Shown one piece after another: positions 40,515 through 43,655 of a stretch of DNA of 64,000 nt. The number at the start of each line of letters is the position of its first letter. Position 1 is the stretch's first letter. The notes under the pieces were generated by a model. The model ran no database searches and had not been told where the DNA came from. It worked only from the letters and a program-made list of their open reading frames with translations. Source of the stretch: Rikenellaceae bacterium. Lineage in GTDB: Bacteria; Bacteroidota; Bacteroidia; Bacteroidales; Rikenellaceae. The stretch spans positions 52,875-116,874 of the forward strand of contig SUZG01000005.1 of NCBI GenBank assembly GCA_015060015.1, written 5' to 3'. The position numbers were made by a program, and so were the translations under genes.

Positions 40515-40580
40515 TCTGCAACAAAGCAACAAGGGGCTGCACAACGATATAGTTTGCGGCTCCTTTTTTATTGTACCCCA

Positions 40581-41720
40581 ATGCCTATAATTGATATAGT
40601 AGATGCTGTTTCAGCACCATATACCGTGTGGCGTACGCTTCGCGGCATAGAGCCTCTATGTCATAACGGCAGGGCTACATTCATCACGGGAAATGCCGCA
40701 GTGACCTTTACGGTGATGCACGAGGGGCGAAAGAAGATTCTCAAATGCTACACCCGCAGCAACCCCTATCTTCGCGAGATATACGGCTCGAAGTACTACC
40801 CCAACGAGCTGTGCGTCATATCACTGACAGGCAGTCAGATGTGGATTGATTGTTTGCTGTACGACTACATCGAGGGCATATCGCTTGACGAGGCGATATG
40901 TGCGGCACACGACTGCCACGATATTGCACTTCTGGCAAGGGCCTTTGACACGATGGCGTGTCATATTCTCGCCGACAGCACCTCACACGGAGATTTGAAG
41001 CCGGAGAATATCATCGTCACGCCCTCGCTGGAGATGATTCCGATAGATTACGACTCGGCATTCACACCCTCGCTTGCAGGCAAACCCGCCACAGAGGTAG
41101 GTACGGCCGGCTATCAGCACCCTGCACGCGACATACGCTTCTTCGACAAGCATCTCGACGACTACTCCATAGCTATAATATCAACCCTGCTGCATATCGC
41201 CGCAACAGACTTTTCGATTGTGGAGAAGTTTCGTGATACGCACGAAAACCCTTTACAGCCACGCGACATAATAGCGGGTAAATGCCCCTATTTAAGCACT
41301 CATACGGAGGCCTTTGCACGCCGAGGAGATGCCATTCGCTATCGCATTGCAAGTATGCTCACATCGGCCTGGCCGCGATTGTTCAACCTTGAACATACAC
41401 TCCGTTTCTCGCAGGCGGAAAACCTTGCAGCCTCAACCGAAGGGGCTTACCTTGACGAGGAGAACGGTCTGTGGGGCTGCCGCAACGATGAGGGATGGAT
41501 TATACCGCCACTCTATGACAGCGGCCTTGACCCCGTTGAGGGTTATATGATTGCTATGCTTGGAGGCTACGCACACCTGATATCGATTACCGAGGGCAGG
41601 GTGGTACACTCCTTTGAGAAGGGCATAACGGCAAGGTCGGTATCCAATGGCGAGGTTGTCATCCGCGACAAGGATGGCAATCGCACGAGCATCACACTAA
41701 AATCCATTCTCGCAGATTAG
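40581..41720 (+). CDS. Protein kinase-like protein with C-terminal WG-type region
   Basis: ILKCY (VAIK-like Lys), SHGDLKPENIIV catalytic loop, IDYDSA (DFG-like), GTAGYQHP; C-terminal ENGLWGCRNDEGWIIPPLYD; start at 40581. Confidence 0.85.
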   Translation: MPIIDIVDAVSAPYTVWRTLRGIEPLCHNGRATFITGNAAVTFTVMHEGRKKILKCYTRSNPYLREIYGSKYYPNELCVISLTGSQMWIDCLLYDYIEGISLDEAICAAHDCHDIALLARAFDTMACHILADSTSHGDLKPENIIVTPSLEMIPIDYDSAFTPSLAGKPATEVGTAGYQHPARDIRFFDKHLDDYSIAIISTLLHIAATDFSIVEKFRDTHENPLQPRDIIAGKCPYLSTHTEAFARRGDAIRYRIASMLTSAWPRLFNLEHTLRFSQAENLAASTEGAYLDEENGLWGCRNDEGWIIPPLYDSGLDPVEGYMIAMLGGYAHLISITEGRVVHSFEKGITARSVSNGEVVIRDKDGNRTSITLKSILAD

Positions 41721-41802
41721 TGCGGTTTTGCAAAGATGACACAACACTTGTTGTAAATTTCGGCTAAAAAGTGTAAATTTGCATCAATTAGAGATATTGT
41801 CA

Positions 41803-42657
41803 ATGTATTCACAGGAGATAACACGCAAGTACCGCACCGCATTTGTCATTGCACTTGACCGTTCCGGCTCAATGCAGGAGCAGATGCGTTATGGGCGTTA
41901 TATGCAGACCAAAGCGACCATTCTGTCACATACAGCGGGAGCTCTCATCACGGAGCTTATCGACCGTTGCCGTCGCACCGATGCACTTCGAAACTACTAC
42001 GACATTGCCGTTGTAGGGTATGGTAACGACGAGGTGGAGATGCTGCTGGGTGGCGACGGGTTTATTGCGATAGATGAACTGGAACGCCACCAGCCCGCAG
42101 AGATAACGACCACGACCGAAGAGCATCTGCCTGACGGCTCGTGGGCAATGGTGGAGCATCGTTCCGTAGAGTGGTTTGAGCCAAAAGCCGAGGGAAATAC
42201 TCCGATGTACGAGGCTATGTTGCGAATACGCGACCTTGTGAAGGACTGGTGTGCAAAGAAAGAGAACAAAGAGAGTTTTCCGCCCGTAGTGATACACATC
42301 ACCGATGGCGAGGCTTCGGACTGCGACGACAGGGAGCTGATAGACATCTGCTCGCAGATAAAGCAGACAGGCACAGCCGACGGCAATACCCTCCTGCTGA
42401 ATATTCACATATCGGCAGACAATCAACTTCCGGCAATATTGTTCCCTATGCCTGACGAGATGCTGGCAGCGAGTCATCACGCCAAGACTCTGGCCGATTG
42501 TTCGAGCATTATGCCGGAGACTTTCAACGAGGCGATATGCAGTCTGAAAGGGCGTGCTGCCATACCGCCGTTTATAGGTATGGGCTACAACGCCTCCGTT
42601 ATTGAGCTGCTCTCGATAATCAACATCGGCTCACGCAGTGCCTCTAATATGCAGTAG
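41803..42657 (+). CDS. von Willebrand factor A domain protein
   Basis: FVIALDRSGSMQEQM MIDAS motif, GNTPMYEAML, VVIHITDGEASDCDDREL. Confidence 0.9.
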   Translation: MYSQEITRKYRTAFVIALDRSGSMQEQMRYGRYMQTKATILSHTAGALITELIDRCRRTDALRNYYDIAVVGYGNDEVEMLLGGDGFIAIDELERHQPAEITTTTEEHLPDGSWAMVEHRSVEWFEPKAEGNTPMYEAMLRIRDLVKDWCAKKENKESFPPVVIHITDGEASDCDDRELIDICSQIKQTGTADGNTLLLNIHISADNQLPAILFPMPDEMLAASHHAKTLADCSSIMPETFNEAICSLKGRAAIPPFIGMGYNASVIELLSIINIGSRSASNMQ

Positions 42658-42659
42658 TT

Positions 42660-43655
42660 ATGGCAACAATTTCGGCATTTCGCAAAGCATTGAACTCTCC
42701 GATAGAGCATTTTCGCACGATTCCCAATATTGTGTGGAATGGCTGCCCTATTGTCCGCTCAACATATTTTGCAGAGTGCCGGGCAACACTTGCCGGATGC
42801 CCCGTAATGGTCTTTATGCCTCTCACTAATGATGCTTTGCAACGTGTGGAACGCCTCTGTACACTGAAAAAACATCTGACATCGCAATTAGTACCACATC
42901 TGACAATTCTACGCCAAGAGATGCGTTACAATACTGTCAGCGACGATGGTTTCGAAGATATATTGTTGGAGCCATACCATTTCGGAAATACTCTGTCGGA
43001 GTGTCTGAATGTGGCCACAACCGACAACAGCATTGTTCCGACCCTATTAGCAGCCATTGACACACTACAAGAGGAGTTGCAGAGAGTAAACATCTCACTC
43101 AACAATGTGCGGGCTGAAAACCTTATCTTCGACAGCAACAACACTCTGCGACCCATACGCTGGTACTACGCCACCGAGGGTGCGGGCGGAGATGACGGGG
43201 CTTTCAACGAGTTACGCACGAAGATTGCATCTGCAGTAGAGTCAGCAGCGGAAAATACGGATACGATGCTGCTGCGAGAGCCCGATACAGCAACCTACAA
43301 TGTTGTGGGATACGACCCATCGCTATACATCAACCACCTCGATATGACCGAAGGTCTGATTGCCGTTGAGACTCTTCGCGGCTGGGGATTCATCGACTGC
43401 GACGGCAATATCGTCATTGAGCCGCAATATGGCTGGGTGAGTCAGTTCTGCGAGGGGCGTGCCGAGGTGGAGACAGCCGAAGGTATGGGTCTTATAAACA
43501 AAAGTGGGGAGTATATCATTTTGCCCGAATACAACATAGTGGATTATGACCACATAACGGGTAACTCGCTGGTAAACAAAGATAACTGCTGGGCGTTGTT
43601 CGACTATTCGGGAGAGATAATTGAGCCATTCAGCACAGAAAAACCGAAAATTTAG
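42660..43655 (+). CDS. Degenerate kinase-like domain fused to C-terminal WG repeats
   Basis: ISLNNVRAENLIF aligns with HGDLKPENIIV; C-terminal RGWGFIDCDGNIVIEPQYGWVSQFCEGRAEVETAEGMGLINKSGEYIILPEYN. Confidence 0.75.
   Translation: MATISAFRKALNSPIEHFRTIPNIVWNGCPIVRSTYFAECRATLAGCPVMVFMPLTNDALQRVERLCTLKKHLTSQLVPHLTILRQEMRYNTVSDDGFEDILLEPYHFGNTLSECLNVATTDNSIVPTLLAAIDTLQEELQRVNISLNNVRAENLIFDSNNTLRPIRWYYATEGAGGDDGAFNELRTKIASAVESAAENTDTMLLREPDTATYNVVGYDPSLYINHLDMTEGLIAVETLRGWGFIDCDGNIVIEPQYGWVSQFCEGRAEVETAEGMGLINKSGEYIILPEYNIVDYDHITGNSLVNKDNCWALFDYSGEIIEPFSTEKPKI

Follow-up and report, generated by a model that had tools for sequence, protein, structure and literature searches.

We have found that Alistipes and its relatives in the family Rikenellaceae carry a conserved set of three genes, K, V and W, in which a TerY-like von Willebrand factor A (vWA) protein (V) stands with a Ser/Thr protein kinase that is likely of the active type (K) and with a protein that by its sequence is a pseudokinase (W), the latter lying where related triads of the same phylum have a PP2C phosphatase. 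This exchange of PP2C for a pseudokinase is old and conserved in Alistipes and its relatives, and is undescribed in the open-licence literature searched. As for what the set does, we see about an even chance that it is a signalling module from a TerY-P-type triad, in which a dead duplicate of the kinase replaced the PP2C and W gates K non-catalytically. Descent from such a triad is supported by the matches of V and K to the TerY and STK profiles, the co-occurrence of K and V, the absence of PP2C, the kinase-domain tree and the loss of residues in W.

The window analysed is a stretch of 64,000 nucleotides (contig SUZG01000005.1, assembly GCA_015060015.1) from an Alistipes MAG. This draft genome measures 1.88 Mb, and the named genomes closest to it are Alistipes MAGs of ruminant-gut origin. 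The three co-directional genes lie at window positions 40581-43655 (Table 1), and the coordinates and the gaps of 82 and 2 nt given in the initial annotation have been borne out, with all three ORFs starting at ATG. The gene upstream of K encodes an FKBP-type isomerase, and the gene downstream of W a thioredoxin-reductase-like protein. A chance arrangement can be rejected because K-V-W occurs family-wide and is under purifying selection: in comparison with the closest relative, K has a dN/dS of 0.088, V of 0.061 and W of 0.148 (327 codons). That is, W has been maintained, and its being a decaying pseudogene is ruled out by this dN/dS value and by intact frames across the family.

Table 1. Features of the K-V-W locus, in positions of the window.
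Feature	Positions	Strand	Basis
Intrinsic-terminator-like hairpin with T run, between the upstream FKBP-type isomerase gene and K	40532..40569	+	folding -19.5 kcal/mol, z=-4.7
K: STK-type Ser/Thr protein kinase (DxD for DFG) with short WG-type C-terminal beta tail, 379 aa	40581..41720	+	PADLOC STK_OB; model
Predicted Bacteroidota-type promoter TTG-N20-TAAATTTG, in the K-V gap, 21 nt before the V start	41751..41781	+	motif conservation
V: TerY-like vWA protein with intact MIDAS, 284 aa	41803..42657	+	PADLOC TerY
W: pseudokinase domain with C-terminal WG repeats, 331 aa	42660..43655	+	hhalign to K; WG match

For K, which had been called a kinase with an HGDLKPEN motif, the motif is present and the protein matches the PADLOC STK_OB profile at E=1.8e-16; this profile also matches all 31 K relatives tested. 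The AlphaFold2 model of K is of high confidence (mean pLDDT 94.9, pTM 0.92), and its top PDB matches are all protein kinases. We have compared residues over 41 K and 56 W sequences, with some positions scorable in fewer. Among the K homologs, the Asp of HGD is kept in 40 of 41 and the first Asp of DxD in 41 of 41, and the beta-3 Lys is found in 32 of 39. By these motifs K is likely an active-type Ser/Thr kinase with DxD for DFG, as the kinases of the PP2C triads also carry; its predicted activity is less than certain, since the DFG position of the window's K reads DYD and 7 of the 39 homologs have Arg for the beta-3 Lys. One K homolog (L065:351-1886) has HGN for HGD, and K may also have died in that genus. 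The WG-like tail noticed earlier on K gives a weak match in the window (PF14903, E=0.029), but it is clear in the family, where 24 of 31 relatives have a WG-type C-terminus; the STK_OB match to K ends at profile position 233 of 562.

V matches PADLOC TerY with E=6e-50 over 279 residues, i.e., over nearly the full length. The MIDAS (D19-S21-S23...T133...D168), described before as intact, consists of residues that are each invariant or nearly so among homologs. A sequence search of V against the PDB gave no match.

The degenerate kinase domain that the initial annotation saw in W proves to be homologous to K (hhalign probability 100, E=6.8e-63). This homology spans the full length of W, the W homologs match the HMM of the K kinase domain, and the WG repeats proposed for W are recovered with E=1.3e-10. 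The W model has a mean pLDDT of 90.9 and matches protein kinases in the PDB at an E of about 1e-6; the TM-scores are low, as expected because the W kinase domain is truncated. By hhalign and the models, kinase folds are thus found both in 40581-41720 and in 42660-43655, a point on which the earlier reading depended. The Asp of HGD is kept in 0 of the 52 scorable W homologs, its position being Asn, Arg, Ala or His according to lineage; the first Asp of DxD is kept in 3 of 52, and the beta-3 Lys in 6 of 56. In addition, the activation-segment columns (G174, H180), filled in every K, are deleted in all 56 W. The N-lobe and the alpha-F region are retained, and near-invariant residues are seen in the region of the old active site, namely Glu76 (55/56), Asn143 (44/53) and alpha-F Asp193 (52/55). 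As the catalytic motifs are lost, the activation segment is deleted and the homology is to K, W is a pseudokinase as judged from its sequence, with both the catalytic Asp and the metal Asp gone.

We have surveyed 200 Rikenellaceae genomes, many of them drafts, and read 59 V loci, at which W was counted. V was found in 182 of the 200 genomes and in all 22 genera, nearly always in single copy, and K in 176 of them. Both are present in 170 genomes, V only in 12, K only in 6 and neither in 12 (Fisher p=6e-9); for four of the K-negative genomes in this table, the identity was obtained by eliminating the other genomes of the list. The gene directly 3' of V is W in 56 of the 59 loci, with a median gap of 4 nt, and two further loci also have a W match directly after V. 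K stands at most three genes upstream in 42 of 59, and where there is no nearby K, it is elsewhere in the same genome in nearly all cases. That is, the adjacency of the three genes, on which the earlier reading equally depended, recurs in other genomes of the family. Two chromosomal sites are used repeatedly: fkbp-trxB in Alistipes, and aromatic-amino-acid genes in other genera.

Some deviating loci were also seen in this survey. Four genomes have a V-W pair and no detectable K (L265, L266, L267 and L076), and in L265 the catalytic-loop region of W reads LPNL. In seven Alistipes genomes (L259-L264, L268), V is diverged and has no K or W next to it, and the genome gives no K match at E<=1e-40; this may be a reductive end state or a new role of V. 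Judging from these 4 + 7 genomes, K may sometimes be dispensable, or it may have been missed in drafts. In 16 of the 59 loci, a gene for a DUF4954/DUF6819 left-handed beta-helix protein stands between K and V (e.g., L083:4258-5973), and this is possibly a fourth member of the set.

Relatives of V are rare outside the family, with 6 genomes among 295 searched in the order, and 17 besides the window's own among 396 in the phylum. At the loci outside Rikenellaceae, a PP2C gene lies directly 3' of V in 15 of 16 (the remaining locus is L210). No PP2C was found at any family locus, and PP2C_2 is absent from the window's own genome. A search with the alignment of the outgroup PP2Cs gave matches in 8 of 8 outgroup triad genomes, which are the positive controls, and in 0 of 20 family genomes. 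The PADLOC PP2C profile gave no matches in the 200 family genomes either, but this result proves nothing because the controls were silent as well. With K and W being duplicates, as the tree below indicates, these counts uphold the proposal of the initial annotation that W takes the PP2C position.

In the kinase-domain tree, K and W form one clade (99/96) and W forms one clade inside it (97/100), while the nearest sequences to K+W are the PP2C-triad kinases of L203, L102 and L103. Since K and W constitute one clade amid triad kinases, W should have arisen long ago by duplication of the kinase of the triad itself. The class-level outgroup locus L203, from another Bacteroidia family, has a TerY vWA protein and a kinase-WG protein (seven WG matches) as K-V-W has; unlike K-V-W, it has a PP2C behind V and no pseudokinase. 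Its kinase-WG stands together with PP2C, so that a WG fusion and the PP2C state can go together. In the simplest history, the triad kinase, already WG-fused or becoming so, would have been duplicated in the ancestor of Rikenellaceae, one copy (W) would have lost catalysis and come to the place of PP2C behind V, and the PP2C would have been lost. From the outgroup sequences we infer that PP2C was lost in the family, and not that it was never present.

The closest known system is the TerY-P triad, which consists of a TerY vWA protein, a PP2C and a Ser/Thr kinase with an OB fold or zinc ribbon (PADLOC TerY-P; Gao et al. 2020; CoCoNuT-associated forms) and has been described as a phosphorylation-dependent switch (PMC11090510). 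It has in common with K-V-W a TerY-like vWA protein with MIDAS and an STK-family kinase with DxD, as well as three close genes with the third protein directly behind the vWA gene. On the other hand, K-V-W has no PP2C and has as its third protein a pseudokinase derived from the kinase of the triad, the tail of K is WG-type and not an OB fold or zinc ribbon, and almost every genome of one family has the set as a resident. K-V-W is not a TerY-P member, since two defining features fail (the PP2C, and the OB fold or zinc ribbon), although it is of the same stock and may work similarly. A Ter/tellurite locus is ruled out, as the window's own genome has no TerD.

Defence genes are usually patchy and mobile. 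Among 50,697 phage records, we have found no match to the set, and plasmid records gave two remote matches, both cyanobacterial, by which a mobile or phage gene is ruled out. Since TerY-P-like modules protect against T7-like phages (PMC7699616, PMC11090510), K and V both match the PADLOC TerY-P defence models, and K, V and W evolve faster than the genes beside them, it has to be considered whether K-V-W is a lineage-specific anti-phage variant of TerY-P, i.e., a defence switch in which W senses through its WG repeats. We regard this as unlikely, because the set is present in about 90% of family genomes, in single copy and at two housekeeping sites, and because of the phage and plasmid results. 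Found almost throughout the family and next to housekeeping genes, the set would rather have a resident physiological function (in stress) than one in mobile defence.

The consensus of Bacteroidota promoters is TTG-N20-TAnnTTTG (PMC7366714), and such a motif with a 20-nt spacer is present in 9 of the 10 near loci listed, the window included. Upstream of V it was found in 13 of 59 loci against a shuffled mean of 0.11, upstream of the intervening DUF4954 gene in 7 of 16, and before W in 0 of 56; a consensus sigma-70 scan is uninformative in this phylum. Upstream of K, three relatives have hairpins at the same place as the window (z=-4 to -6). Because a conserved promoter is predicted in the K-V gap, V-W probably forms a transcription unit of its own and K belongs to another. 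Of the three-gene operon described in the initial annotation, the V-W unit stands, whereas a single K-V-W operon is doubtful in view of this promoter, which splits K from V-W, and of the terminator-like hairpin before K. Separate units also fit the observation that V and W are inseparable and K is at varying places.

The same arrangement could be taken to mean that W is a structural adaptor only, with WG repeats that bind a ligand or partner, a kinase-like part that docks on V, and no regulation between K and W. Indeed, V and W are the closest of the pairs in position and probably share a promoter of their own; K often lies at another place, and some genomes with V-W have no detectable K. Nevertheless, this explanation seems improbable, since K and V strongly co-occur and their distance correlation is the highest of all pairs (K-V 0.87, V-W 0.81, K-W 0.71). 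These correlations agree with V as a hub, and they do so weakly because the neighbour gene rnz reaches 0.78 with V and 0.79 with W, the K-V-W values being little higher. That W has a new catalytic activity (cf. SidJ polyglutamylation and SelO AMPylation) and replaces PP2C as an enzyme is very unlikely, for although Glu76, Asn143 and Asp193 are near-invariant, the activation segment and both catalytic Asp are gone in W, and its active-site positions vary between lineages, unlike those of a preserved enzyme.

In the reading that we prefer, in which W gates K, K would be the likely kinase and V a metal-dependent hub, by analogy with TerY-P. With a metal ion at its MIDAS, V would hold W as a constant partner and recruit K, and W, which is not expected to transfer phosphate in the usual way, would control without catalysis, as a regulator or decoy, whether K reaches V or substrates. 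In that case, K:W binding would set the switch, and not a kinase working against a phosphatase. The most likely role of W is that of a partner of V which tunes K without catalysis. A more general claim, that in this family a switch between kinase and phosphatase became one between kinase and pseudokinase, with binding via the metal-dependent vWA hub in place of dephosphorylation, is tentative, and we would put it somewhat below an even chance.

Kinase-pseudokinase pairs are known in eukaryotes, e.g., LKB1-STRAD and HER2-HER3. They are like K-W in that an active kinase goes with a dead regulatory relative, where for W the regulation is the presumed part; they differ in that the likeness is a pairing without common descent, and that a vWA protein stands between K and W. 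In bacteria, the Ser/Thr pseudokinase families covered by a 2025 review (ActPs1-3, GLW, CP1, DYD and DLHK; PMC12599244) share with W the kinase fold and the lost catalytic motifs, and the DYD family shares the D-x-D with K. W differs from these families in its missing activation segment and its WG repeats, and neither Bacteroidota nor TerY nor von Willebrand is mentioned in the text of the review. The combination of kinase, vWA protein and pseudokinase-WG was not found in the open-licence papers searched, in agreement with the initial annotation, which knew of no named system of this composition.

Bacterial pseudokinases are a hardly studied field, to which our result adds a conserved Bacteroidota group with a sister kinase, of the active type by its motifs, encoded in the same genome. 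In addition, the family provides a natural replacement experiment, as the phylum also contains related triads with PP2C, and here vWA and kinase proteins of the same families do without it. With this PP2C-free set of relatives, both the role of PP2C in TerY-P and its substitution by a pseudokinase become testable. It also represents a defence-type module that has settled as a near-core gene set in common gut bacteria.

Among the outgroups, two further arrangements around TerY were observed. In the outgroup Bacteroidales loci L101-L103, the TerY vWA domain is fused behind a DarT ssDNA ADP-ribosyltransferase domain (e.g., L102:5407-6870; DarT E=7e-40, TerY E=6e-45), and the set also has a DUF6939 protein, a PP2C and a kinase with leucine-rich (L102) or Sel1-like-looking (L103) repeats, so that these sets look like a TerY-P module with a DarT effector. 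In the outgroup L100, two PP2C-like genes lie near one TerY gene, the second of which is longer (505 aa) and has an extra C-terminal region.
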